Positions 3,486 to 60,544 of a stretch of 64,000 nt of DNA are shown piece by piece (within the stretch, counting starts at the first letter, position 1; each line of letters opens with the position of its first letter). The stretch is from NCBI RefSeq assembly GCF_032854445.1, contig NC_088299.1:11031608-11095607 (forward strand). The letters are read 5' to 3'. Both the position numbers and the translations under genes were made by a program. This DNA is from Liolophura sinensis. Taxonomy: Eukaryota > Mollusca > Polyplacophora > Chitonida > Chitonidae. The notes below the pieces were generated by a model. The model had not been told where the DNA came from. It did not search any database and saw only the letters and a program-made list of their open reading frames with translations.

Positions 3486-3552
3486 GTATACCAATAACCC
3501 AGTGATGACCTCTTTCAGTATTGTGATCATTAAGTGTGTTTTTGTTTCACAG

Positions 3553-4613
3553 GCCATGGTCGTACCTATTTCTTTTTGTCAGCTCTGGCGACATGTGTTC
3601 TCAACGTACCCAAAAGAATGCAGCCTCTGGCACTGGTTGTCATGGAAATCGTTGTTGGTGCAATGCCCATGATTTTCCCGCTGGTTTTCGAAGGATTACT
3701 GGGACAAGCAGACACTCTTGCTTCCTGCATAAAATTCTTCTCCTGTCTGACTGGCATCAGTTTTCTAGGAGCCCTCACCGGATGTGCCTTCATGACGAAT
3801 TCTTTCACTTTGGAGCAAATCCGCTGTGGCAAAAAATTTTGTTTTTCGGGGAAGAACGATGGCGAAGAAGGGCGATTATTGCAAACATCGCCATCGAGCG
3901 GCAACGAAAACACAAAGGAATTCAACGAAGAAGCAGATAAGTCTTTGATGATGAATAATTCGACCACGCTTTTTGAGTTGATTGTTTCAGTGGATTATAA
4001 CTTGATTTTCTGGACGGCATCCGTCCTGACCGCCATATCTGTGTTTTACGACTACAACGTGGTATTCTTGCTGACAGCATACGGTCACCGTACAGACTCC
4101 GTCATGGTGATAACGATCTACCGTTTGGTGGTGATAAGCACCAGGATTGTATTGACGATCTTTTTATTTATCCTGCAAAATAGACCGTCATTCGTGTTCA
4201 TTCTTCCATTCCTATGTGGAATTCTCACAATAATATTCATTCTCCTGACGATGTTTTTCTCGAACCACCTCTGGTGTATTCGCTTGGCCTACATCGTCCT
4301 GGGGATCTGCTGTGGAATTGTATACGTCTTCCCACCCATACTTATCATCAACATCTTCGGACTGGCCAACTTTGGACGTAACGTTGGTATCTTAAACAGT
4401 GCAATCCCTATATTTATGCTGTTCATAAATATGGTATTCAGTCACTATTACGACAAACACACCTCAAAAGATGGAGAACTGTATTGCTATGGAGACCGAT
4501 GTTTTCTTTTGTCCTACATCTTGACCTTGGTTTTGGCAATATTTAGCTCATTTTTGGCAGCATTGCTGTATTTTAGGAAAGTAGATAGCAGGCTGCAGTC
4601 GGCAACTGTGTGA
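3553..4613 (+). CDS. MFS transporter (nodulin/NFD4-like), terminal exon
   Basis: This exon encodes the last 353 residues of the transporter begun at 696, and ends at TGA 4611..4613. It starts after tttgtttcacag; the codon split across the intron gives Gly, so the product reads LLFAG-HGRTYFFLSALATC. Visible features are ALATCVLNVPKRMQ and a helix ending PMIFPLVFEGLLG (compare the NFPKR and IF..IY region of NFD4-type proteins), then a polar central loop of about 55 residues rich in Gly, Glu and Ser. Six further hydrophobic segments follow, from LFELIVSVDYNLIFW to a last helix before YFRKVDSRLQ. The pre-terminal motif GELYCYGDRCFLLSYI matches the C.G..CF.LSFI signature of this family. With the 73 residues of 696..914 the visible product is about 426 residues; family members are usually 500-600. 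Expected location is a membrane; substrate unknown. Confidence 0.85.
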
Positions 4614-10690: not shown

Positions 10691-11055
10691 GGGGACGGGC
10701 CGGATAGCACAGTTGGTAGAGCGTCCGCTTCGGGAGCGGTAGATCCAGGATGAATCCTTGGTCGAGTCACTTCCTCTTTAAAAGATGAAGTTGAAACTTC
10801 CTCGCTGGGCGTTCAGCATGAAGGGGATAGTGCAACGACTGGCTGACCCGTATCAGTATAATGGTTCGGGCGGGGAGCCTTACTTGCCTTCGGTAAGTCG
10901 TTTAAGTGAAGAAGCACTAGATAAAAGAGCGGTGGAAATTTGTCCTACTACAAGAAGGCGCACAACATATACCCTAAGAATTCCTTCGTCGTCATATGAC
11001 TGAAAAATTGTTGAGTACGACGTTAAGTCCCGAGCACTCACTCACTCACTCAGGT
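10691..11055 (+). mobile_element. SINE family C, full length, tRNA-Pro(CGG)-like head
   Basis: The head has an A-box, tagcacagttggtagagcg, then an anticodon-arm-like hairpin ccgc-ttcggga-gcgg that would present CGG (Pro), then a degenerate B-box (ggatgaatcc). The body follows (ccttcggtaagtcg, cttcgtcgtcatatgactg, gagtacgacgttaagtccc). It ends in a short (actc) repeat. A diverged B-box and a long non-tRNA body make it a SINE, not a tRNA gene. Inverted copies occur at 5750 and 49381. Confidence 0.85.
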
Positions 11056-13319: not shown

Positions 13320-13995
13320 TATGGAGCACGTGCCACTCTCTTCGCTCGCTTTATCACGTATACTATGGTATAGGACGGAGATTTTCTCACATACACCATG
13401 GTATGGGAAGGATGATTCCTCAGGAGGCTTATGGTGTACACCATGCTGTTGGACAATTGTCTCATGGGCGTGTCACATAGACCATGGTATAGGAAGGATG
13501 GTTTCTTAGGGGGCGTGTCACATACATCATGGTGTAGAACGGAGGTATACTATGGTATAGGAAGCATCGTCCTTCAAGGGGCGTGTCGTGTATATTGTGG
13601 TATAGGACAGGGGTTTCTTCAGAGAGCCTGTCACATACATCATGGTGTAGGACGAATGTTTGCTCAGAGGGTCTGTCACCCACACCATGGTATAGGAAGG
13701 ATGGCTCCTCCTGGGGTGTGTCACGTATACTATGCGATATGACGGAGGTTTCCTCAGAGGGCCTGTCACATACACCATTGTATGAGACGGGTATGAGATG
13801 GTGTAGGACGGAGGTTTCCTCAGAGGGCGTGTCACATACACCATGGTGTAGGAGGGCGGTTTTCTCAGGGGACTTGTCACATACACCATGGTATAGGGCG
13901 GATGTTTCCTCAGGGGCGTTCACATACATCATGGTGTAGGAGGGAGGTTTCCTCAGAGGGCCTGTCACAAACATCACGGTGAAAGAATGATGTTT
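13320..13995 (-). repeat. Minisatellite A, 45-bp unit, about 15 copies
   Basis: Units carry ggaggtttcctcagaggg, cgtgtcacatacaccatgg and tgtaggac. The best-preserved units centre on the perfect 14-bp palindrome TACACCATGGTGTA (for example 13837..13850). The same unit occurs in opposite orientation at 17215..17770. The 45-bp length is a multiple of three, so 15-residue periodic frames appear on both strands. Confidence 0.9.
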
Positions 13996-14002
13996 CCTCA
14001 GG

Positions 14003-14820
14003 AAAAAATAGTAGCAAAAGCATTTTAGAGAAGGGAGTTCTCATTCGGCTGAATGTCTAGTATTTATATTCGTTACGATCTGACAGTTTAGGACAACTTG
14101 GCCGGACCTATAAATCCTAAGAGCACGTTCCTAAGAACACTGAATATATAATCTATTGAACAGAGCGCACGTCTTGGTGTGGGAAGGATAGTTCCTGGGA
14201 GGGCGTGTCACGCATACTATGGTATAGGACGAAGGTTTCCTCAGAGGGCATGTCACATGTACCATGGTGTAGGAAGGATGGTTTCTCAGGAGGCGTATAA
14301 AATACACCATGGTGTATCGATTTCTGATTGGCTGGTGGAGGAGACATTTATTCAAGCGTGACCAAGGCTGCAAGGTTTTAACCCAGGAGACCCTATCTCT
14401 ACTGTCAGTCATTCGGCGTTGATTCTGTATCCCTCTAAGTAATAAATAAATTTTAATGAAGTTAATGAATAAACTCTGCATTATCCGGGAACGCTTTATA
14501 AGACTAGACATAAAAAGTATTAACTTCATTTGCATAATCATATAAAAAAATACTTGTACCGGTAAAAAAAAAAATGGTGAATATATGTTGTCCATTAAGT
14601 GTGACGTTCTCGGTATAACGTTGATAGCACTCACCAGCCCTATATCTCAAACTGCATCTGTTTCCTCGTTGCTTTATGTGTCCTCACAATAGTGAACTAT
14701 GCTTTGTTAATCTATAAGAGTAGAATTTAATGCTTAGGTCTCTAATGTTCACAAAGGCTTCCCATATAACTTGACGTCTTGTTCCCGGAAAGTATTTACA
14801 CAACACCCCAACGCCACAGC
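14003..14820. repeat. Left inverted arm of the Foldback-like element
   Basis: The order is outer block 14003..14162, three to four 45-bp units 14163..14316, and inner block 14343..14820. It pairs in reverse complement with 16701..17113 and about 17935..18206. Confidence 0.75.
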
Positions 14821-16700: not shown

Positions 16701-18206
16701 GCTGTGGCGTTAGGGTGTTGTGTAAATACTTTCTGAGAACAAGACGTCAAGTTATATGGGAAGCCTTTGTGAACATTAGAGACCTGAGCATTAAACTCTA
16801 CTCTTATAGACTAACACAATTATAGTTCACAATTGTGAGGACACATAAAGCAACGAGGAAACAGATGCAGTTTGAGATATAGGGCTGGTGAGTGCTATCA
16901 ACGTTGTACTGAGAACGTCACACTTAATGGACAACATATATGCACCATTTTTTAAATTTATTTAACTTTTATTTATTTATTAACTTCATTAAAATTTATT
17001 TTTATTTATTACTTAGGGGAATACAGAATCGATGCCGAATGACTGGCAGTGGAGATAGGGTCTCCTGTGTTAAAACCTTGCAGCCTTGGTCACCCTTGAA
17101 CAAATCTGCGTAGGTAATAAATAATAATATATATATGGACTTGACTCTTAGAACACATAATATTAGTTGTCGGATATTGACTATTGTCTGTGGCTCACTC
17201 ACCCTGAAAAAAAACATTATGGTGTATATGAAAGACCCATGAGGAAACCTCTGTCCTCCACCATGATGCATATGACACGCACCCTGAGGAAACCTCCGTC
17301 CCACACCATGATGTATGTGTCACATTCCCTGAGGAAACCTCCGTCCTACACCATGATGTATGTGACACATTCCCTGAGGAAACCTCCGTCCTACACCATG
17401 ATGTATGTGACACATTCCCTGAGGAAACCTCCGTCCTACACCATGATGCATATGACACGCACCCTGAGGAAACCTCCGTCCTACACCATGATGTATGTGA
17501 CAAGCCCCCTGAGGAACCATCCTTCCTACACCACAGCGTACGTGACACGCCCTTTGAGGAAACCTATGCCGTTCACCATGGTGTATGTGACACGCCCTCT
17601 GAGGAAACCTCCGTTCTGTACCATAGTATACTTGACACACCCCTGAGGAAATCTCTGTCCTTCACCATGGTGTAAATGATGAGGAACCATCCTTCCTACA
17701 TCATAGCGTACGTGGCACGCCCTCTGAGGAAACCTCCGCCATTCACCATGGTGTACGTGAAACACCCTTAACATTGCCAAAGCTTAAATCAATACACCGC
17801 TATACGTTTACGGCAATGCCCAGACTGCAACTAACTAGGAACATCTGGAGGATCTGTCATCGTATTTTCTGCCATCGGAACACATTCCTCTGGTTTATTG
17901 ATTCGTGTTATTCCTATAAGAACTGCGACTGTGCGCTCTGTTCAATAGTTTATATATTCAGAAAAAGAGCGAAAGCAAGCTTTATGAGCATTGGTAGTAA
18001 ATTTGCAGGATATGAGCAATATGTTTTATTGAACAGTACACACCAATGGGGACTATTAGAAGGAACGTATTTGCGATTTTTTTTGACAGACCGCTCTTAG
18101 GATTTATAGATCCGGCCAAATTGTCCTAAACTGTCAGATCGTAATAAATATAAACATCAGCCGAACGAGAACACCCTTCACTAAAATGCTTTTTGCTTCC
18201 ATTTTG
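16701..18206. repeat. Right inverted arm of the Foldback-like element
   Basis: The inner block 16701..17113 pairs with 14343..14820; the outer block about 17935..18206 pairs with 14003..14162. A frame at 17774..18100 covers the outer block but shows no domain. Confidence 0.75.
17215..17770 (+). repeat. Minisatellite B, 45-bp unit, about 12 copies
   Basis: Units read ctgaggaaacctccgtccta, caccatgatgtatgtgac, and so on. At least three consecutive units are nearly identical (17290..17425). It is the same repeat as 13320..13995 in opposite orientation. Fifteen-residue periodic frames run on both strands. Confidence 0.9.
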
Positions 18207-22380: not shown

Positions 22381-22651
22381 ACGTGCAAAAGTTAACTGTA
22401 AATTTTAACTGAACGTTTGTTGTCGGAGTGTTGCTAGAACGTGTTCTGTCATTATAAAATAATACTGTATCAAATTTAACAAAGGATCTTGTTAGTGTAA
22501 TGAAGAGAACCTTTGCGTTGAATTAATAGGAAATCTGTGCTATATTTAACAGAATAATTTTCTGCAACATCAGAATACATTCTAGCATTCTACTTTCTAT
22601 TAAATTTAAAAGGCGTAACAAACACCGGACATAAAAATAAAGTGAAGTATT

Positions 22652-22657
22652 TTTATT
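22652..22657 (-). promoter_or_regulatory. Possible poly(A) signal of the neuropeptide gene
   Basis: AATAAA on the minus strand, about 555 bp past the stop of the neuropeptide CDS. It is the first canonical hexamer I saw downstream; an AT-rich region makes chance occurrence likely. Confidence 0.2.
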
Positions 22658-22916
22658 GTGAACATCTTTTTTTTTCAAAACTTTTCTCACAGATATAACA
22701 CTCACATTACGTGATATCGGGAAAAGCATCTGGTCAGAGACTAGCAACCGGATGGACAAGCAGAGTGGAACGTCGGGATAGATCGTACTTGGACCACACG
22801 TCTTCCCAGACCAAAACGCCCGGAAAATAAGGAAAACATTCGACACCACTGTTTATATCTGTTTTTTTTTTCATTTAACAGGGGTTTTTTTTTTACTAAA
22901 AGGACAGAAGGTGATC

Positions 22917-22949
<33 letters not shown>

Positions 22950-23210
22950 CTCAACAAAACAGTGTGAAAATTAAGGAAAATACTGTCTTTGACACTACAC
23001 TGAGCGTTAAATAATGTCGTCGGGGCGGAAACATGTAATTAAGAAGAACAGTTACGATTAAATTAAACCTAGTGCTGGGAAATTGTGAGAACAACAAAAA
23101 ATTCCACTGATGAGACTGAGATCTTCACGCATGTGTGTCTGCCGGCATTGCAGGCGAGTGTTTGGGGGTCTATTTGCAGTAGGCCACAGTTTGTGCCGGT
23201 GGGCACGTCC

Positions 23211-23287
23211 TTATTTCTCCCGGGGCCGTTTGGACATGAGCCATGGAGCTGCCGGACAAACCTTCCACAGACAAAGAGACATGCCAC
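23211..23287 (-). CDS. Neuropeptide exon 3: ring peptide, processing site, stop
   Basis: The exon follows the acceptor tttgtcttttcag and starts GTGGCATGTCTC. With the G from exon 2 it reads GGMSLCLWKVCPAAPWLMS, then KR, PREK and TAA (23213..23211). The two cysteines four residues apart are the only ones in the precursor, consistent with a single ring. No amidation Gly precedes KR, so the C terminus would be free acid. A longer minus-strand frame over the same bases (23069..23317) is out of phase with the upstream exons and shows no processing logic. Confidence 0.85.
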
Positions 23288-26200
23288 CTGAAAAGACAAA
23301 ACAGGCAAACCATTCATGTCAGATCATCTAATAATACATATACTTATTTAGTTAGGTATTTGACCAATCACATCCGCTGTTCGAATCCAGTTCTCGCTTT
23401 TCAACAACGGATTAACGAAAAAAGAGATTTGTCAGGTATCAAGCAAAGGTGGGAGGTTCACACAGGTTCCTTCTGCTTCTTCCACCCATGAACATCACTG
23501 CCATCATGAAATAAGTGAAAAACTCTCGAGTAAGCCTGTAAAGACAAATCCATCAATCACTGAGTATACCATGCCTACGACCAATAAAATGTTTTTATTG
23601 TATTCCTGCTATGTCATCGATATATCAGAAACACTATCATAATTAATTTTTTAATAATTTGACTGGACTTTAGCACTATATACCATATTTTATTTGCAGA
23701 AAAGCAGACCGATGCGTGCGTCATATCCCGTTATAAGCTATTTGGCAGAAAGCAATTTTTTATAATTCCTACAGATGTGTCTCTTATGTACATGTCAGTG
23801 CTGTTGGGACTACTGACTGCTGAGTCAGCTAACATAGTTACTGCGATGGATGAACATAATTTTTAATTCATCAAGCGTTAAGAACATGACAATGAAAAAA
23901 GCATCTTAAAATTCAAGCATTTTACTGCTTTTTATTCAAATAAAATCTAAAAATACGAGTAGAGATAGCTTTCCTCTGAAGCAGTTATTTTTGAACAGAG
24001 GCAGTACTCTGTTGAGTAAGGTTGGTGTGTTACGTTGCATATGGTATTCCTGGAACAATGAATGGCTGAAATTTTGCTACTGTAGCGTCAAACCTCAATC
24101 AATCATCCATTCTGGAACAGTTAGTTCTATTGCTTCACGTCATGTTCATCGCTTTATCACTCTTTCAGACATTAGCTTAATGATGTAGTTGATTAACATT
24201 TGTTGCATAACTGCTGATAACAGAAGCCTACTAGTGTGTGTACTGTAACGTCATGGACGAACTCAATTTCCTGAGCAGTACGGACATGAAACCATCATAA
24301 GGAGCGGGAAACGCTATGCAGGAACGCTTTTATTGGCAGCTCTGGTAACCTTTACGTAACCCAGGCCGTAACAAGATGTTACTCGTTGTTCGCCTTAGAT
24401 GGCAAAGCGCAACGCCCATGTACAAACAACAAACATTCTTTACTGATGGAAATTATAAACAAACTTAACCTTTGGCTTTCTTGCCTGTTTCCGGCATTTC
24501 GGTCCAAACATTCTACAAAGAAATCTGTGCCCCCCCCCCCATTTTCAGGCCATGTTAAAGCACAGGATTTATCTGAGGACAGGTGCCAACAATAAAGCTG
24601 CAATTTTGCCGAAGTGGGGTTAAGCCATAGTCATTATTTCTAATGTTAAGAAAATGTTAACAAGCTGAGAGATGATTGCTGATATAATTAATCCGCGACT
24701 AAAATTTAGGACCTTGTCACCTTTTAAATCCTTTTTATAAATGGAAAGATCATTGTGTACTGGTACTCTTGTTGTTGTTGTCATTGCCATTCCACACGTT
24801 TACATCAGGTGTATACTCAGAAATGACAGCCAAGATGTGTAGTTATCTGTTGAACTAATACAATAAGCTCTTACTTGAATATTAAAATTGTATGCCCAAA
24901 GTTATCCGCACAGTAAAATAGTTCCCCAGAACTTACAAATCGGCACTACATGACTTGTCCCTACATGGGAACTTGCATTGTCTGATTTTCGCAAAGTGTT
25001 GACCTCCAATTTCTGACTTGGTTCAATCATAGGAGACAGTCCAGCGTTTAAATATGTTCGTTTTTTAACGGCCATTCGGGATGTACTCAAACATATTTCA
25101 CTCATACGTCAGTGGCCGGCATTATGACGAGACGAAACCAAGAAGAGCCCGGGGGCTACCACTACCACCCGCAGGTTGCTGAAGGACTTTCCACGCACGA
25201 TCGGAGAGGAAGCCAGCATGAGCTGGACGTGAACTCACAGCGATCGTATTAGTAAGATGCCCCTGGGTCATTACATGATGGCTGTGGTGCACCGTAATTA
25301 TAACAACTTTCCACGTATATGCTGTCGATCAAGATTGTAATGGAGACAATCGGGCATACCTTGGTGAAAACCGCCGCACCGAGTCAGGTGCCTGACAAAC
25401 TCTGACATAAAGCCACAGCACTTTTCATCACCTCTTCCAAATGTAACCTTTTACTCTAGTGATCTCGATATTTAATCGTTGAGTATTTAATATTTACGAC
25501 ATGTTTTTTTTTCAGACTGAAATTAGTCTGCCCATCATTTTACTAACTTACATTTGAAGTTTGGCTGAAATTTATTGCCTAAGTGTGCTCAAGGATGATG
25601 GGGATTCGAAGGACTCCATTTCGTGAATGACTTCGGCCCAGCGTAAAGTTCCACTTTTTGCAACCGTTAATAATTTACCTTCTTCATTACAGCTTTCAGA
25701 TATTTATATGACTGGTGGGATAATAAATATTTTTATTATGAACAGATTTCTCTCGTTGCATGTAATAAAATCGACCGCTGATCTTTAGAAAATGAACAAA
25801 ATCTGCAAGGGATCTGTCTCCGTTATCGAATGTACGAAGTATTTGGTTTCCAAGGATAAATGTCAGCCAAAATTCCAATTTTTAACGAAAGTACTCATAA
25901 ATTATTTCACGTGTCATAAATTAAAGGGTCATAACCTTTGGACAAGGAAATTCTACATTCTACGCTCTTATTGGCCATTAGGACTTGGTGAAATTAATCG
26001 ATCAATGGCACTGATGGACCAGCTTGAGCGGGCTGACGTTCGCTGAAGACAACTTACATGTACACCAGTATGGCTGGTAAGTCTGTGGGTCACACATAGG
26101 AAAATCATCAGTAACTTGTTAGATTTTTACTCGTAATCATACACTGACACACGGTGTTCTCAAGAAGTAAATTTTAAAGAAAGTGCACTGGCCTTTGTCA

Positions 26201-29200
26201 CATTGATACACTGGCTAAACTTCGTTACAAGCCAAAAGTCGACTTTGTCATATTGATGTATTGGCTGAACTTCATTACAAGCCAAATTACACATTGTCAC
26301 ATTGGTGCGCTGGATGATCGTGATTAGAAGCCAAAGTACACATTGTAACACAACTGCACTGGATAAACGTGATAGCAAGCTATAGTACACATTACTACAC
26401 ATAACAGAAATGTGGCTTTCGTTGCGTTATAACTGAATATGCCTAATCAAGGACATTAACAGTTACAGAGGTTGCCATTGACATACCTTATTCAAAATGG
26501 AGTTCATTTTCTTGTCACAAACCGTTGTTTTCAATATATTTGGCACAACGTTTACTTATTCAAGAGTAGCACATCGTGGCAGGTGTTCTCTTAGGCGCCT
26601 CATAACATCATTTTGCAGAACTAAACGTATATTTTGAATATAGCTAGTCAGAAAACTGAATTGTGGGTCAAATCTTCATTTTGCCGAAATGTGCAGTTAG
26701 TACGTTTCTCTTGGCCTTCCGAGAAAAAAACATAAACTCCACATTTCAGTACTAAGGTCTCAAGAACTAAAAGCTATCATTGGGAAAAAACCCAAATTAT
26801 GACTGGTTTTGAGTACATTCAGCTAAACACCCGCAAGAATACACCATGGTTATGCCTTCCTGTTCTATTTATAAAGGAATAATACTCTCAAAAACTTGGG
26901 TTAAGCAATTGTACTTACAATTACTTTTAGCACGTAGCGTATGTTTGCTACACCGTCTTCTTGGCTGCTTTCTTGGCAAAAACTATTTTTTTTTTATTAG
27001 TTGTTATTCCCTACAGCTGACAGATTTGTTTTCGGCACGAGTACATTGTCATCGCTACAGGGACAGAAATGAATAATGTACTACAAATTTTGCTCCCGAT
27101 TTATCACCCCTCCCCCTCCACCGATCCAAACTTTAAAAATTTCTGAAAATTTCTGAAAATTGTTGGCCACAAAAATTCCAGAAAGGTGGCTGATAGCGAC
27201 CTAACCATGGCCGTTCACCTGAAATGAGATTTGGTAAAATTTCAATGAAAATTAGTTTCATCACACAGTTCCAACGTTGTTTGCCTACCACTTCGCTTTT
27301 GTGACCTGATCTCCATTGACAAAGATCAAATGAATTGCCCTACAAAGTTGTGTGACTTTCTTAACTATCGTTTCAAGCACTATTAACTGGATTAGAATAA
27401 ATACATTAGCAGTAAAATAAAGCAGTTGTCTTTTACAAAAAGTGGGTATATTTACCTGATCGTCCTTGGGGCAGGGGTTTAAATCTTTTCTCGGGTTCTC
27501 CTATTTCGTTCAAATCTCTTTCTTCGCCAAGTCCAAAATCCCGCTCTCTTAACCTCCTCTCGTAGTTAAATCTTTGCTGTACCAGAGACAAAAGGCGCGG
27601 TAAAATGTTGTCTCTCTGAAATCATGAAATCAAGAAAATGTCAGTTTCATCAGGACATGAGTAATTGGGAATGCCTTAATGCGGATAACTTCGGAAACAA
27701 TATCCACTAAGTTGTTTTTTTTGCAATGCTTAGTTTTTGGTACATATCTGTGTTAAAATAACGTGGTCAAACTTTTAATTTCTAGGCCACCAATAATAAG
27801 CATTAAAATCATGTTTCAAATTAACTTTGTGAAATCGGTCGCTATTATCTAAACTCACTATTAAAAAGACCGATTTTGCTCAATTGGTGAGCATTACAAT
27901 CATAATGCCTACACAAACTGAAATGTGAAATGTAATTTTAAGTTTATGTTCAAGTTCATTTATGATAAAGGCTTTTTGCCTTGAACAACTTTCGTACATC
28001 AATTTATAGAGCCATTTCAAACTGAAGGCACAAGGAACATCTATATGGAACAAAATTATTGATGCATCAAGCAAATCGAACCAAATAAGACACACTGATT
28101 AAAGGAACTACAAAAGAAAATGAAAGCTGGGAGATGTGCTCCCACAAGAGACCAATAGGCCCTATGAGGCCAGCTTTACAATCTATAGTTGATGTTCAAA
28201 TCCCACGGAAAAACAATGACATATAATTTATTCATAAATCGAATATTGCATTCACAAGATGTCAATATGCCTTCTAAAATACCCTTCCGAATTGCCAAGG
28301 GAACTTTTTGCGAATTCGCCTGTCATGTTCCAAGCTTGGAGGAGTTGTGGAATGGGTCTTTAGAAGTTCTGTGTTCAAATCTGCCACTCCCTCAATCAAG
28401 GCCATGTGCCTGGGTGCACTGAGGCAGAGTTGTTTGTTCACAGGCAGGGTTGTGTGTTTAGTGGGAATGATATATGCCTTATGGCTCTATGTCAGAGGCT
28501 TGAATCTATACCCGTAGCATTGTTTGACTGGCTGATCTGTGATTGGACGTATTTTTTAACATCATCAATAAAGCAGCTTAGTGAGCATTAATGGTGTCAA
28601 TGATATAACAGAGGCATGATTTGTCTCCCTGACTGTGTATTTCTACAATCGTAAAGTAGTTCCATGTTAACTGTTGCTCTGTATTTCTTATGTCACATTT
28701 TAAAGACATATTTCCCCTGATACCATTAACGATATTTCCGAAGTAAAACTCATGAGGATGTATGATCGTCACGACACAAAGCCTATGGATGGTCTGGCAG
28801 CTACAATTGGTTACAATATGTTACACATGTGTTTTAATATGTTATATGTTAACATAGGCTAAACAGCAGTGTGTTTTTGTTTGCGACCAATATTGAAGTT
28901 TTCTTGAATAGCAAGGAAACATATAATCAAGAAATTTTACTTCCACAAGTCAAAAACCTGCAAGTTTAAAGAAGACAACAGGGTTCTTTCCATGAAAAAG
29001 GTCTTGGCATTTTCGTTACTAGAACTGATAATTCACATTTTTAAACGACTTTAAATGCAATTCACCTGATACAGTGAATGCGACTTGCCAAAATATACTT
29101 CTAAGAACAAAGCTGTATTAATCTAGTTGTATTGGCCAAGTTAAAAGTGGCACTGGAGAAGACGAAATTTGTATTGCCCGAGTTGAAGGTCAGAAAGTTC

Positions 29201-32200
29201 AACAGTAAAGATTCAACCTAAATAGCATGATATCACGTGTGGCAGACGACAACAAAGTTTATGAGGAGGTTGCTCTGCCGTTATTTTACGGGATTAAGGG
29301 ATTAAGAAATTGATTACTATTTTTTTATTATTTATTTGATTGGTGTTTTACACCGTACTCAAGAATATTTCACTTATAGGACGGCTTCAACATTATGGTG
29401 GGAGGAAACCAGGCGGAGCCCATGGAAACTCCACAGATGGTTGACAGATCTTCCAACTTACGGCCGGAGAGGAAGGTAGCATGAGATGGGCTTGAACACA
29501 CAGCAAACGCATAGGTGAAAGGCACCTAGATTATTGCGCCCTGCTCGCGTGCTAACCCCCGAAGGCCCCCTAAATTGATTAGTTGATTTGAAGACAAAAC
29601 AAACGCTGATCAATCACACAAGGCATCTAACGAATTTATGAAAACACAAACTAATTAAAATATTTTTAGTTGAGTGTGATTGCATTGTCTCAGAGTTGAG
29701 TTTCACCGGATTGATCCCTCCCCCCCCCACGGACACACCGACTGAGGCCATACAAAAAACACTCTGTAAATAGCATAAAACATTATAAATGGTTTTCGCT
29801 GTTGTACAATATACAGTGGGAGAGTGACGGGCTATACAAAGAGGTTACACAGTCTTTTATGAGCACAGATACATCTACCTACGACAGAAAAGACATATTT
29901 AGGCTCCTCTGCACAGATTTGGACAGTTTTGTTAAAGGCGGGGGTTTTCTGTCCCTAGTGTTTGCTTCGGTATGCCAACCAGTTTACTTTGTGAACGACC
30001 AGAAGGCGATTATGAAATGAATCTACACTAATATCAATAGGACGAACTGGTTTAAAGGGAGCGTCAGTTAGCGGTTAAAGAGGCATAGCATTAATGGCAG
30101 GGGTTTAAATCCAGCTAAGGATATGGAATATGTAGATTTTTCCCAGCTCTAACTGCTTGTCGGACTTTGGTGACAATAAGCTACCAACGACGCTTTTGTT
30201 GCCGTGTGTGCGGTTCTGTTCGTTCGAGACCTTTTGTTTTCCACCAATATGGTGTGCATATTTGTTGTTCACGTGTCAAAAAGTTGCCGAAGGTCGGTGG
30301 TTTATGCCTGGAACTCTGTTTCCTCCACACATGAAAATAACCGCCATCATATCATAGAAAAATTCTCCAACAATAAAATAAATTCAGCTGACCTGTATCC
30401 TAGAGAAACACAGCCTATCAGCCTACACGTGAATGAGTTGCATAAAATGTGAACATTAAACCCTATGGTTTGAGTCTTATTTCTAAAATAAAATCGTTTG
30501 ATTTAACGTTGAAGTGCAAATGATTTTAACACCTGTTGTTTGATATTCAGATGAACGAGCAATACCGTTAACTATGTTTTATTGCCCCGAGAATGGGACA
30601 GCATGGTGGAAATGATCTCAAGGCTCAGGGGAAGTGCAATGCAACACCCACCTGACGTATTCAAATGTGCACAGGAGCATCGGTTGTCAGTTACAGTTGT
30701 AGATTTGGGCGCCTGATTTACGGCTTGGTGCTTGGGACACCTGAGTACCTAGTTGGCTTATTTCAGTGTTTAACGTCCACCGAGGAGATGAAAAGTAAAA
30801 AAAGAAGGCTCTGCAACTCATAAGTAACACTAGCTGGAGATGTTTTGACCCCGTGCTCACATCATACAAGTATATGCCATCATTCACATATGTCATTATG
30901 ATGTTATTCGAATAAATATCGCTCTCTGCGGAGAAGATCTGTTTTTGCCCATAACATCTGTGACTTTTGTCGTATTAATTCGACAGAAATTTCATTAATG
31001 TGCCCCAAGATTGCTATTTGCTTGTCAGGAGATTTGAATTTCACTGTCACGTTGTAGAAGTTATGACAGCCATGAATTTTGAGGTGAAACAATGTTCCGT
31101 ATGTTTTAAGTTCTTAAGTGCAGGTGCCAGGCATCTACTGAAACATTAAACGTCATATCAGTCATCCAAATAAACAAGTTGGTCTCCTGTTAAATGCACA
31201 GTACTACGTTCTTTCTGAGCGCAAAAGCAGAAAACGAAGTGTTGTATAGAGGTTTACTATGCGCTGAAGGCGAAAAAACTTTCCTGTGTCTTTACCACAC
31301 AAGGCATAGATCTCAATTTGGAAATCCGCCCATTTTAAGATTTCCTGGCAATACACGTCGCTACATAAACAGAAGAAACAATTGTTAACCTTTAACAGCT
31401 TCCTTAACCTGCACGCCGATTCTAGGCCTTGCACCTTTGAACATGAGGTAAAGGTTCGATATCCACTATGTTTCTGGATTTCTCAATATATTCACTGAAT
31501 TTTTCTGGGCTATATTTGATAGTACTCACAACTTTTTCCCGACAAAGGGTATGGCGTGGGTTAATTGCGGAAGTGTAAAATAAAATTTCCGAAAATTATT
31601 CATCGCTTAATAACGTTGTTACTTTCTTGAAATGCAGATATATAGGCAAAGCTATTTCAAGTATTCCTATATCAGTCGGCAGACAGATACGATATTATCG
31701 TCAGAACATACGATATGTTCTGACTTTGCTGTTTGTAATGGCTAGACGACATCCCCTTGGGGCTCCTAGCTCGACTGAATCCGGGCAACCACTCTACACG
31801 TTAAACGGTTATTTTCCGCTCAAAGCGCAACGCTATACATTTTACAGTAATATATGCGGTGCGAAAAAAGTATCAGATCCTTATGTAAAAGTGTTTTTTC
31901 ATTGTTTAGCAAACATAATAGGTAAATGGTGGTAATAAAGCGTACACATTTATTTTATGTATGCAACACGCATTATAACGCACCAGGTAAAATGTCAAAA
32001 ATAAGTCAAATGAATGCTTTTAGTGGTGTTCATACTACTACGCTTATGTGAAAAATGCCGGCAAAGGCAGGTTATATCATTTAAGGAAAATAACCCAGCA
32101 AACTGACAATCGAAAAAGATGTACGTCAGGTGATACGATTTAGGGTAGATTAAACCCAGCATGACAAACAAGTCTGTAAAATCCTAAGAATGAAGTTAAA

Positions 32201-32497
32201 AACCATACATTTTCCCTCCAACTTTGCTTTCAAGGGGTTAATCGGCGACTGGCATTGCATGGCGTAAGATTTCAACTAAATGTCAACTCCATATGTAAGG
32301 ACAAAAAGAAAGAGCAAAGAGAGAGGGAAAAATGGAAATCAGAAAATAACATTGCAATAATGTAAAATACACGGCTTAAATATACTTACTCTGAAATCAT
32401 CTTGTGACTCTATTGAGTTATCAAAAGATCTGGCTGATGTTGAAATGATGGCAAGAAGAACGAGGAAAAGAGCCTGAAACATGGTTGACGATTGCAT
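23211..32497 (-). CDS. Somatostatin/allatostatin-C-related neuropeptide precursor, three exons
   Basis: The CDS joins 32497..32390, 27615..27456 and 23287..23211 on the minus strand: 345 nt, 114 residues plus stop. Residues 1-22 are a signal peptide (core FQALFLVLLAII, likely cleavage after TSA). Residues 23-78 are an acidic/basic propeptide rich in Arg and Glu. Lys79-Arg80 is a dibasic site. Residues 81-108 form the predicted peptide with Cys95-Leu-Trp-Lys-Val-Cys100 followed by PAAPWLMS, and Lys109-Arg110 is a second dibasic site before PREK and the stop. Exon 1 ends in phase 0 (gtaagt donor), exon 2 in phase 1 (gtaaat donor); both acceptors are TTTCAG. The Trp-Lys in a short Cys ring is the core of the somatostatin/urotensin II fold. 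Mollusc peptides of this type belong to the somatostatin- and allatostatin-C-related group from which I recall cone-snail consomatins were recruited. Expected role: secreted ligand of a G-protein-coupled receptor. The assembly is inferred; transcript support is not available here. Confidence 0.85.
23370..23550 (+). mobile_element. SINE family B, degenerate
   Basis: gttcgaatccagttctcgct resembles a B-box, followed by ttctgcttcttccacccatg and a tail-like ataagtgaaaaactctcgag. Confidence 0.4.
25078..25276 (-). mobile_element. V-SINE-like SINE
   Basis: An inverted copy runs from the tail (ggatgtactcaaacatattt) through agaggaagccagcatgagct to gtcattacatga near the head. Confidence 0.85.
26190..26395. 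repeat. Short tandem array, 50-bp unit, 4 copies
   Basis: Units start at about 26194, 26244, 26293 and 26343 and share tttgtcacattgatacactg, gctaaacttcgttacaagcc. Divergence rises along the array. Confidence 0.75.
27456..27615 (-). CDS. Neuropeptide exon 2: propeptide and first dibasic site
   Basis: The 160-nt exon after the acceptor catgatttcag encodes RDNILPRLLSLVQQRF, a charged stretch NYERRLRERDFGLGEERDLN, then EIGEPEKR and FKPLPQGRS. The donor is CGATCAG/gtaaat. The KR ends 27 nt before the donor, so the first part of the mature peptide is encoded here and its ring in exon 3. Arg88 in PQGRS is a possible monobasic cleavage site that would give a 20-residue form. Confidence 0.82.
29325..29572 (-). 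mobile_element. V-SINE-like SINE, near full length
   Basis: An inverted copy from atttatttgattggtgtttt through acattatggtgggaggaaac to the head end gaaggcccccta. Confidence 0.85.
30150..30365 (+). mobile_element. SINE family B
   Basis: It has ggactttggtgacaataagc, ccaccaatatggtgtgcata, aaggtcggtggtttatgcct and the tail ccgccatcatatcatagaaa. The same order is seen at 38395..38580. Confidence 0.55.
32390..32497 (-). CDS. Neuropeptide exon 1: signal peptide
   Basis: It encodes MQSSTMFQALFLVLLAII, then STSARSFDN, and ends SIESQDDFR at a perfect gtaagt donor. Two in-frame ATGs exist: 32497 and 32482. Both have A at -3; I chose 32497 as the first ATG in a frame giving an n-region, but 32482 also gives a good signal peptide. 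A third in-frame ATG (32575) would add 26 polar residues before the hydrophobic core and is less likely. Confidence 0.82.
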
Positions 32498-32650
32498 ACT
32501 GTCGTCTGAAGTCTTTGAGGTGAAGAGAAATTTTCTAGCACTAATGTTCCAAACTCGATGATAAAGCAAAGCCAAACTTCCACGCTCAGAATTTCGACAA
32601 GGTTCTCCCCTCTTGAGCGTTCAAATAAAGTTCGCCTGGACCACACACGG

Positions 32651-32732
32651 CAAGTCTGATTTATCCTCGAACAACTTGGCCTTTATAGTGTCTAATTTGT
32701 CCCCGCAAATGAGAGGTGAAATATTGGCTGTG
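32651..32732 (-). promoter_or_regulatory. Core promoter of the neuropeptide gene: CCAAT, TATA, initiator
   Basis: On the minus strand, CTATAAAG (32688..32681) lies with its first T of TATAAA at 32687. Thirty bases downstream TCAGACT (32659..32653) fits the metazoan initiator YYANWYY, with the A at 32657. A CCAAT box (32727..32723) lies about 65-70 bp upstream of that A. The resulting 5' UTR is about 160 nt and unspliced. The spacing is what is expected of a TATA promoter; no transcript start data are available. Confidence 0.65.
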
Positions 32733-33555
32733 AGAAAGCAAGTTGCCTACGCCAATCGCTGTCGAATCACCAGGGAATTGACAGAGCGATTTTGCTTGGA
32801 CCGGTTAAAGCAGACGACACTGTCAAATCCATGCAGACGGTAAATCCCGCCAGGTGTCGAGTTACATCTGCCGGCGGAAGCCGATAATTGCCGAAGACTT
32901 TTCTGTGGCTTCCATCTGCGCAGCAAACACTGTGGTTTTCCTCTGCAATCAGCATCGTCACGTCTTGCCGTTTAGTAATAATTGGGTCATTTTTACCACA
33001 AATACCTTGCCCAGTACCTGCTATGTCTACGTAAAAGTTGCGGTCAGCGCGTCCGATGAAGACTTCACCGCCTGTGATAATGACGCCCACATCTGCGCGC
33101 AATCATCTAAGTGTCCAACGCACGATGAGCAAAATCGTTCACAGTAACGTCATTAAAGAATAAACACAAACAATTGTGCTTTTTTCCAGATATATAATTA
33201 CCCTGCAATTAGGCCACAGTTAATGCTGAAATCTGGGATAATGTCAGGTAATTGTATGCATTTTCTACATAAGTACTTACTTAAATGTAGAAGTTTCTAA
33301 TTAACTTTCAGTTGTGCAATATTTTGAATTTCGTATTGTAGATATGTGAGATATATATGATTATAACCAGTAACCAGGCATAAATCGATAGCATTTTATT
33401 TTTAAATGGAGCTTTAGTGCGTGAACGAATCTGGAGATTGCCTCCTGGAATATTTAAAGGCACAGCGTTTGAATCACACTTGTTCTCGACAGCATAAAGT
33501 CATATACATGTATGTCCGTACATTCGTGAATAGCACCAGCATCACGCGCGTAATG

Positions 33556-55964: not shown

Positions 55965-58900
55965 AAACTGATGTTGTAGATAACACCCATGTGTTCGATG
56001 GATGAGCGAAGATACCTGAGTGTTGTAGATAACACCCATGTGTTCGATGGGTGAGCGATGATACCTGAGTGTTGTAGATAACACACATGTGTTAGATGGA
56101 TGAGCGAGGAAACCTGAGAGTTGTAGATAACACCCATGTGTTCGATGGATGAGCGAGGATACCTAAGTGTTGTAGATAACACCCATGTGTTCAATGGATG
56201 AGCGAGGATACCTGAGTGTTGTAGATAACACCCATGTGTTCGATGGATGAGCCAGGATACCTGAGTGTTGTAGATAACACCTATGTGTTCGATGGGTGAG
56301 CGAGGATACCTAAGAGTTGTAGATAACACCCATGTGTTCGATGGATGAGCGAGGATACCTGAGTGTTGTGGATAACACCCATGCGTTCGATGGATGAGCG
56401 AAGATACCTGAGTGTTGTAGATAACACCCATGTGTTCGATGGATGAGCGAGGATACCTGAGTGTTGTAGATAACACCCATGTGTTCGATGGATGAGCGAG
56501 GATACCTGAGTGTTGTAGATAACACACATGTGTTAGATGGATGAGCAAGGAAACCTGAGAGTTGTAGATAACACCCATGTGTTCAATGGATGAGCGAGGA
56601 TACCTAAGTGTTGTAGATAACACCCATGTGTTCAATGGATGAGCGAAGATACCTGAATGTTGTAGATAACACCAATGTGTTCGATGGATGAGCCAGGATA
56701 CCTGAGTGTTGTAGATAACACCCATGTGTTCGATAGGTGAGCGAGGGTACCTGAGAGTTGTAGATAACACCCATGTGTTCGATGGATGAGCGACGATACC
56801 TGAGTGTTGTGGATAACACCCATGCGTTCGATGGATGATCGAAGATACCTGGGTGTTGCAGATAACACCCATGTGTTCGATGGATGAGCGAGGATACCTG
56901 AGAGTTGTAGATAACACCCATGTGTTCGATGGACGAGCGACGATACCTGAGTGTTGTAAATAACACCCATGTGTTCGATGGATGAGCGAAGATACCTGGG
57001 TGTTGTAGATAACACCCATGTGTTCGATGGATGAGCGAAGATACCTGGGTGTTGTAGATAACACCAATGTGTTCGATGGATGAGTGAGGATACCTGAGTG
57101 TTGTAGATAACACCCATGTGTTCAATGGATGAGCGAAGATACCTGGGTGTTGTAGATAACACCCATGTGTTCGATGGATGAGCGAAGATACCTGGGTGTT
57201 GTAGATAACACCAATGTGTTCGATGGATGAGCGACGATACCTGAGTGTTGTGGATAACACCCATGTGTCCGATGGATGAGCGAAGATACCTGGGTGTTGT
57301 AGATAACCCCCATGTGTTCGATGGATGAGTGAGGATACCTGAGTGTTGTAGGTAACACCAATGTGTTCGATGGATGAGCCAGGATACCTGGGTGTTGTAG
57401 ATAACACCCATGTGTCCGATGGATGAGCGAAGATACCTGGGTGTTGTAGATAACCCCCATGTGTTGGATGGATGAGTGAGGATACCTTAGTGTTGTAGGT
57501 AACACCAATGTGTTCGATGGATGAGCCAGGATACCTGGGTGTTGTAGATAACACCCATGTGTTCGATGGATGAGCGAAGATACCTGAGTGTTGTAGATAA
57601 CACCCATGTGTTCGATGGATGAGCGAAGATACCTGAGTGTTGTAGATAACACCCATGTGTTCGATGGATGAGCGAGGATACCTGAGTGTTGTGGATAACA
57701 CCCATGCGTTCGATGGATGATCGAAGATACCTGGGTGTTGCAGATAACACCCATGTGTTCGATGGATGAGCGAGGATACCTGAGAGTTGTAGATAACACC
57801 CATGTGTTCGATGGACGAGCGACGATACCTGAGTGTTGTAAATAACACCCATGTGTTCGATGGATGAGCGAAGATACCTGGGTGTTGTAGATAACACCCA
57901 TGTGTTCGATGGATGAGCGAAGATACCTGGGTGTTGTAGATAACACCAATGTGTTCGATGGATGAGCCAGGATACCTGAGTGTTGTAGATAACACCCATG
58001 TGTTCAATGGATGAGCGAAGATACCTGGGTGTTGTAGATAACACCCATGTGTTCGATGGATGAGCGAAGATACCTGGGTGTTGTAGATAACACCAATGTG
58101 TTCGATGGATGAGCGACGATACCTGAGTGTTGTGGATAACACCCATGTGTCCGATGGATGAGCGAAGATACCTGGGTGTTGTAGATAACCCCCATGTGTT
58201 GGATGGATGAGTGAGGATACCTGAGTGTTGTAGGTAACACCAATGTGTTCGATGGATGAGCCAGGATACCTGGGTGTTGTAGATAACAGCCATGTGTCCG
58301 ATGGATGAGCGAAGATACCTGGGTGTTGTAGATAACCCCCATGTGTTGGATGGATGAGTGAGGATACCTTAGTGTTGTAGGTAACACCAATGTGTTCGAT
58401 GGATGAGCCAGGATACCTGGGTGTTGTAGATAACACCCATGTGTTCGATGGATGAGCGAAGATACCTGAGTGTTGTAGATAACACCCATGTGTTCGATGG
58501 ATGAGCGAAGATACCTGAGTGTTGTAGATAACACCCATGTGTTCGATGGATGAGCGAGGATACCTGAGTGTTGTGGATAACACCCATGTGTTCGATGGGT
58601 GAGCGAGGATACCTGAGTGTTGTAGGTAACACCAATGTGTTCGATGGATGAGCGAAGATACCTGAGTGTTGTAGATAACACCCATGTGTTCGATGGATGA
58701 GCCAGGATACCTGAGTGTTGTAGATAACACCTATGTGTTCGATGGGTGAGCGAGGATACCTAAGAGTTGTAGATAACACCCATGTGTTCGATGGATGAGC
58801 GAGGATACCTGAGTGTTGTGGATAACACCCATGCGTTCGATGGATGAGCGAAGATACCTGAGTGTTGTAGATAACACCCATGTGTTCGATGGATGAGCGA

Positions 58901-60362
58901 GGATACCTGAGTGTTGTAGATAACACCCATGTGTTCGATGGATGAGCGAGGATACCTGAGTGTTGTAGATAACACACATGTGTTAGATGGATGAGCAAGG
59001 AAACCTGAGAGTTGTAGATAACACCCATGTGTTCAATGGATGAGCGAGGATACCTAAGTGTTGTAGATAACACCCATGTGTTCAATGGATGAGCGAAGAT
59101 ACCTGAATGTTGTAGATAACACCAATGTGTTCGATGGATGAGCCAGGATACCTGAGTGTTGTAGATAACACCCATGTGTTCGATAGGTGAGCGAGGGTAC
59201 CTGAGAGTTGTAGATAACACCCATGTGTTCGATGGATGAGCGACGATACCTGAGTGTTGTGGATAACACCCATGCGTTCGATGGATGATCGAAGATACCT
59301 GGGTGTTGCAGATAACACCCATGTGTTCGATGGATGAGCGAGGATACCTGAGAGTTGTAGATAACACCCATGTGTTCGATGGACGAGCGACGATACCTGA
59401 GTGTTGTAAATAACACCCATGTGTTCGATGGATGAGCGAAGATACCTGGGTGTTGTAGATAACACCCATGTGTTCGATGGATGAGCGAAGATACCTGGGT
59501 GTTGTAGATAACACCAATGTGTTCGATGGATGAGTGAGGATACCTGAGTGTTGTAGATAACACCCATGTGTTCAATGGATGAGCGAAGATACCTGGGTGT
59601 TGTAGATAACACCCATGTGTTCGATGGATGAGCGAAGATACCTGGGTGTTGTAGATAACACCAATGTGTTCGATGGATGAGCGACGATACCTGAGTGTTG
59701 TGGATAACACCCATGTGTCCGATGGATGAGCGAAGATACCTGGGTGTTGTAGATAACCCCCATGTGTTCGATGGATGAGTGAGGATACCTGAGTGTTGTA
59801 GGTAACACCAATGTGTTCGATGGATGAGCCAGGATACCTGGGTGTTGTAGATAACACCCATGTGTCCGATGGATGAGCGAAGATACCTGGGTGTTGTAGA
59901 TAACCCCCATGTGTTGGATGGATGAGTGAGGATACCTTAGTGTTGTAGGTAACACCAATGTGTTCGATGGATGAGCCAGGATACCTGGGTGTTGTAGATA
60001 ACACCCATGTGTTCGATGGATGAGCGAAGATACCTGAGTGTTGTAGATAACACCCATGTGTTCGATGGATGAGCGAAGATACCTGAGTGTTGTAGATAAC
60101 ACCCATGTGTTCGATGGATGAGCGACGATATCTGAGTGTTGTGGATAACACCCATGTGTTCGATGGGTGAGCGAGGATACCTGAGTGTTGTAGGTAACAC
60201 CAATGTGTTCGATGGATGAGCGAAGATACCTGAGTGTTGTAGATAACACCCATGTGTTCGATGGATGAGCGAGGATACCTGAGTGTTGTGGATAACACCC
60301 ATGTGTTCGATGGATGAGCGAGGATACCTGAGTGTTGTAGATAACACCTATGTGTTAGATGG
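55965..60362. repeat. 4.4-kb satellite, 49-bp unit, about 90 copies, with higher-order structure
   Basis: The unit reads gtgttgtagataacacccat, gtgttcgatggatgagcgag, gatacctga. Units differ by a few substitutions and almost no indels. Specific variant strings recur exactly 2,450 bp apart (50 units; about 56200..57675 against 58650..60125). Others recur 882 bp apart (18 units; about 56780..57700 against 57662..58582). The minus-strand unit has no stop codon in any frame. Since 49 is 1 modulo 3, long open frames with a 49-residue period (up to 708 codons, 56604..58730) arise automatically. I see no sign that they are genes. Confidence 0.97.
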
Positions 60363-60544
60363 ATGTTGGATAAAAGGACAATTGCGGATATCACCTATGT
60401 GTAATGGTTGTATGATGGCGAGTGTTGATTGTAAATCTCGTCATTACGATAAACGGAACATGAAGTCGTCATCAATGCATTGTGACCATAAAATGCCTCC
60501 ACGATGGGAGAAAATTCTCGCGAGGTATTTGATATCCTCCTGAC

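Follow-up and report, generated by a model that had tools for sequence, protein, structure and literature searches.

A three-exon gene of the chiton Liolophura sinensis, very probably orthologous to the molluscan urotensin-II-like neuropeptide gene

The minus strand of the 64-kb stretch of Liolophura sinensis DNA analysed here (hereafter the window) carries a complete gene for a small disulphide-ring peptide, which we regard with high confidence as orthologous to the urotensin-II-like gene of molluscs (Aplysia apUII), the lineage named SSRP-like in work on cone snails. Judged by sequence, the gene model is no chance reading; the decisive evidence is the identity at 19 of 20 positions between the predicted short peptide, SGGMSLCLWKVCPAAPWLMS, and apUII' from Aplysia, SGGMSLCLWKVCPAAPWLIS, which Romanova et al. 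(2012) sequenced by tandem mass spectrometry (PMC3493602). The gene is a real but ordinary, well-defined addition to a known hormone family. With it, a hormone studied for its actions in Aplysia now has a complete gene from a chiton. The Liolophura genome was published under the name L. japonica (PMC11068029), and a subsequent correction gives the species as L. sinensis (PMC12441733). Among the matches listed from the open-access literature, Koch et al. 2022 being outside it, none deals with a UII or SSRP gene of a chiton, a weak sign that the gene is unpublished.

Gene structure and precursor

The coding sequence is distributed over three short exons, given below in window positions together with two motifs from the flanking DNA.

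32390..32497, minus strand: coding exon 1 (108 nt, 36 codons), ATG at 32497, followed by gtaagt in phase 0; start Met, hydrophobic signal-peptide-like segment and first propeptide residues
27456..27615, minus strand: coding exon 2 (160 nt), between ttcag and gtaaat; propeptide, Lys79-Arg80 cleavage site, and FKPLPQGRS of the mature peptide with the first base of a Gly codon
23211..23287, minus strand: coding exon 3 (77 nt), after the pyrimidine-rich ttttcag and with TAA at its end; GMSLCLWKVCPAAPWLMS with the disulphide ring, Lys109-Arg110, PREK and stop
32682..32687, minus strand: TATAAA, 190 bases 5' of the ATG; possible core promoter, named from the motif alone (scan of 32498-33100)
22652..22657, minus strand: AATAAA, about 0.55 kb 3' of the stop; possible polyadenylation signal, likewise a motif match alone (scan of 22600-23210)

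Joined in frame, the exons give 345 nt (108 + 160 + 77), i.e. 114 amino acids and a stop codon. The two introns measure 4.2 and 4.8 kb and lie in phases 0 and 1, and their splice sites agree with the consensus. The preliminary description, which proposed three exons in these phases with a 114-residue product, is thus exact in every coordinate, and the propeptide Lys-Arg, the CLWKVC ring and the terminal Lys-Arg with stop that it reported are all present in the joined frame. From its N-terminus, the precursor consists of a hydrophobic segment, an Arg- and Glu-rich propeptide, the dibasic pair Lys79-Arg80, a peptide of 28 residues, Lys-Arg at 109-110, and the tetrapeptide PREK. Lys-Arg occurs at these two sites only, and the peptide flanked by them is FKPLPQGRSGGMSLCLWKVCPAAPWLMS. 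The Kyte-Doolittle mean of the N-terminal hydrophobic core reaches up to 3.67 in a 9-residue window.

Assignment to the urotensin-II-like family

The sequence features by which molluscan UII-like/SSRP-like genes can be recognized recur in the chiton gene. It encodes a putative signal peptide, as judged by hydropathy, and dibasic sites on both flanks of the mature peptide. This C-terminal peptide contains the six-residue ring C-x-W-K-x-C, in the form CLWKVC, as does apUII. The likeness to a family member extends beyond the ring: there, the 20-mer agrees with apUII' at 13 of 14 positions. Furthermore, the gene has three exons, with the mature peptide encoded on exons 2 and 3.

SSRP (somatostatin and related peptide) is a term that was reportedly defined by Koch et al. 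in 2022. For endogenous SSRP-like genes, three exons are described, the second and third of which encode the mature peptide (PMC11336141, following Koch et al. 2022). The Aplysia peptide is called a urotensin II homologue by Romanova et al. (PMC3493602), and SSRP-like peptides are called somatostatin orthologues in the cone-snail work (PMC11336141); in the passages of the literature examined, we found none that equates apUII and SSRP by name. From their common ring, processing and gene layout, we infer that the two represent one lineage. According to an earlier view, somatostatin-type peptides were lost in protostomes; the passages concerned do not discuss the molluscan UII-like peptides (PMC8851493). 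The preliminary description had proposed that this is the gene of an endogenous hormone of the source animal; both the match to apUII' and the published three-exon layout of SSRP-like genes bear this out for a molluscan hormone of the somatostatin superfamily. It had also named in advance, as a point of refutation, a lack of similarity to lophotrochozoan neuropeptides; such similarity is present in the 19 of 20 residues shared with Aplysia.

An allatostatin-C precursor proper would belong to the same superfamily, and allatostatin-C precursors, too, typically contain one disulphide peptide at the C-terminus (PMC8786951). Molluscan allatostatin-C thus resembles the chiton gene in its single disulphide peptide and its small precursor, but it differs in sequence and in its ring, which encloses six residues between the cysteines, e.g. 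in SHYSSMCMFNVVACY of Aplysia (PMC8786951), whereas the chiton peptide has four and carries the sequence of apUII'. We therefore consider this assignment very unlikely. A search of the Liolophura genome for an allatostatin-C gene with a degenerate pattern gave one match, against one in the reversed control, and this match has no gene-like context; the Aplysia allatostatin-C peptide used as query against the same genome yielded no candidates. Neither result weighs for or against the presence of such a gene. Of the initial label "somatostatin/allatostatin-C-related", the somatostatin superfamily is retained on the strength of the match to apUII', but allatostatin-C proper is not, given the four rather than six residues inside the ring.

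Features of vertebrate-type somatostatin are likewise lacking: four residues separate the cysteines of the chiton peptide, and there is no match to the Pfam Somatostatin family. In mammalian somatostatins, ten residues lie between the cysteines (PMC8786951). No Pfam family matches the precursor at E up to 10, which is uninformative because the peptide is so short. A profile search of the Liolophura genome with PF03002 returned no match, and this family is also silent in all control genomes. Two PDB matches over the propeptide, Sc-apCC-2-MCL-1-3 and Sc-apCC-2-BCL-xL-2, are weak (E 0.078 and 0.24) and were set aside.

Chance occurrence and copy number

The motif C.WK.C occurs once when the window is translated in all six frames. 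Shuffled windows contain it with a mean of 0.067 per window (300 shuffles), and the ring followed by Lys-Arg and a stop occurs in none of the 300; the shuffle works on dinucleotide blocks and is a crude control that is not truly dinucleotide-preserving. A six-frame search of the precursor against the whole assembly (609,464,459 bases in 632 contigs; E up to 10) found three places, namely its own three exons, with E-values of 5e-14 for exon 1 and 5.4e-31 for exon 2. At the sensitivity of this search, a loose first pass from which distant copies may escape, nothing points to a further copy of the gene in the genome.

When the ring plus a following Pro is searched for across the genome as a DNA pattern, 12 places match, compared with 5 in the control. 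Read in frame, these are the gene's own ring, seven copies of one repeat-like sequence, and four others; in the 11 places other than the gene itself, no Lys-Arg appears in the stretch of up to 30 residues past the ring. The repeat-like sequence, dispersed over its seven places, reads C-M/I-W-K-M-C-P-S-N-T in one frame and looks like a hormone ring; most copies have an Arg-Arg just beyond. One of the four others reads CFWKFCP and then a stop, with Lys-Arg upstream; its DNA was read too and shows no recognizable gene context.

The exons are short and are separated by introns of several kilobases, as might be expected if they were remnants of a dead gene, or if exon 3 were a chance look-alike that had been joined to the others in the preliminary description. 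Against this, the frame, the splice sites and the dibasic sites are all intact, the peptide agrees with a sequenced Aplysia peptide at 19 of 20 positions, and none of the other 11 ring-pattern places shows a Lys-Arg in the up to 30 residues read downstream of the ring. A remnant or a fortuitous join is thus highly improbable.

Chitons are grazing animals, and no venom is known from them. That the gene encodes a secreted somatostatin mimic aimed at other animals, in the manner of the consomatins, would accord with the derivation of consomatins from this gene family and with the three exons of canonical consomatin genes (PMC11336141), but it can practically be dismissed, since the source is a chiton, only one gene was found at the sensitivity used, and the peptide, instead of being diversified, almost equals the one in Aplysia neurons. 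Consomatins are marked by expression in the venom gland and by diversified copies in cone snails; here, the animal is a chiton, and one gene was found. The ancestry of consomatins had been brought into play from the start. In this point, it holds that the gene belongs to the stock from which consomatins arose; because the source is a chiton, however, it is a cousin of the cone-snail gene and not its direct ancestor. As such, it supplies an outgroup for the conversion of the gene into venom peptides in cone snails.

Processing, action and conservation

For the chiton orthologue of apUII, we propose that the precursor would enter the secretory pathway by means of its signal peptide and would be cut at Lys79-Arg80, at Lys109-Arg110 and, as in Aplysia, probably at Arg88, releasing peptides of 28 and 20 residues. 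The two cysteines would close a ring around Leu-Trp-Lys-Val, and this ring may offer its Trp-Lys pair to a somatostatin/urotensin-type G-protein-coupled receptor. Buccal sensory neurons and neurons of the cerebral A cluster produce the peptide in Aplysia, where synthetic apUII' lowers motoneuron firing and the frequency of the feeding motor program, and the mRNA, the peptide and the inhibition of feeding programs have all been published (PMC3493602). Because the peptides are nearly identical, the chiton gene most likely encodes a neuromodulator of the same kind as in Aplysia, acting via a somatostatin/urotensin-type receptor. By analogy, the chiton peptide might act as a neuromodulator in the ganglia and damp the motor output for feeding; we give the feeding role itself perhaps an even chance.

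That the peptide is almost the same in chiton and sea hare is a modestly interesting point that seems worth keeping, on a comparison of two species. That 13 of 14 positions outside the ring are unchanged between the two hints that the tail, like the ring, matters to the receptor. We lean slightly towards the view that the 20-mer, including its tail PAAPWL, was fixed before the split between chitons and gastropods and has stayed almost constant afterwards, in contrast to the octapeptide before it, which has changed. If this is true, the tail as well as the Trp-Lys ring would contact a conserved receptor, and the molluscan hormone would be set apart from vertebrate somatostatin and urotensin II. 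The comparison tells conserved and changed parts of the peptide apart over the divide between Aculifera (chitons and their relatives) and all remaining molluscs, which is so named in a published abstract.

Other features of the window and the assembly

On the plus strand of the window, open frames at 638-1054 and 3534-4613 match Pfam MFS_1, the former with an E-value of 2.4e-4 (below the family cut-off) and the latter with 2.4e-8 (just above it); both are probably exons of one major facilitator superfamily transporter gene. At 10698-10769, the plus strand matches the Rfam tRNA family with 35.6 bits (cut-off 29), which may reflect either a tRNA gene or a repeat derived from a tRNA. Separate 45-bp minisatellite arrays of similar unit occupy 13598-14001, 14192-14289 and 17235-17674, and those at 13.6-14.3 kb look like reverse complements of the one at 17.2-17.7 kb. 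Towards the other end, 55968-60365 is occupied by a tandem array with a 49-bp unit, repeated about 90 times (91% matches). It holds open several long, overlapping frames on the minus strand, one of which has Pfam matches that fall below the cut-off and look spurious.

Elsewhere in the assembly, a contig of 108,685 bp (C99) contains seven head-to-tail copies of COX1 spaced about 15.4-15.6 kb apart, and the single mitochondrial contig (C632) has 15,209 bp. C99 is either an assembly concatemer of a slightly longer form of the mitogenome or a nuclear array. In C632, the run cox3-K-A-R-N-I-nad3-S-nad2 lies on the strand opposite to nad5-nad4-cob (tRNAs predicted by ARAGORN, cox1 by Pfam, other protein genes named from their translations). 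A Liolophura mitogenome is reported with 15,209 bp, and the run cox3-K-A-R-N-I-nad3-S-nad2 is listed for Liolophura (PMC12111177). The gene order speaks for a chiton source and against a gastropod, which the peptide had suggested.

Comparison with known systems

The closest counterpart is apUII of Aplysia. Its long form, F85-S112, has 28 residues, and the short form results from a cut at R92 (PMC3493602); the chiton peptide likewise has 28 residues from Lys-Arg to Ser, begins with Phe, and carries Arg at place 8. The ring peptide stands at the C-terminal end of the precursor in both animals (PMC3493602), and the two 20-mers differ by one change from Ile to Met. The octapeptide before the 20-mer is different, as compared by mass: 923.5 in the chiton against 962.1 in Aplysia, the latter being the difference between the published masses of the long and the short form, 3080.7 and 2118.6 (PMC3493602). 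For the chiton, the calculated [M+H]+ of the disulphide-closed peptides is 3058.53 (long form) and 2134.99 (short form). The Aplysia precursor has a further Lys-Arg at 43-44 (PMC3493602), for which the chiton precursor has no Lys-Arg counterpart.

Lophotrochozoan UII precursors have already been characterized, and the C-terminal ring peptide of the UII-type precursor of Crassostrea gigas was detected in forms of 27 and 19 residues (PMC8398477); compared by length, each is one residue shorter than the corresponding long or short form of the chiton. With the endogenous SSRP-like genes of cone snails, compared by their published description, the chiton gene shares the three exons, the distribution of the peptide over exons 2 and 3, and the Trp-Lys disulphide ring. 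Vertebrate urotensin II and somatostatin have in common with the chiton peptide the Trp-Lys turn held in a disulphide ring. The core of urotensin II is CFWKYC, with six residues of which four lie inside the ring (PMC3493602), and the chiton tail PAAPWLMS stands outside this vertebrate core.
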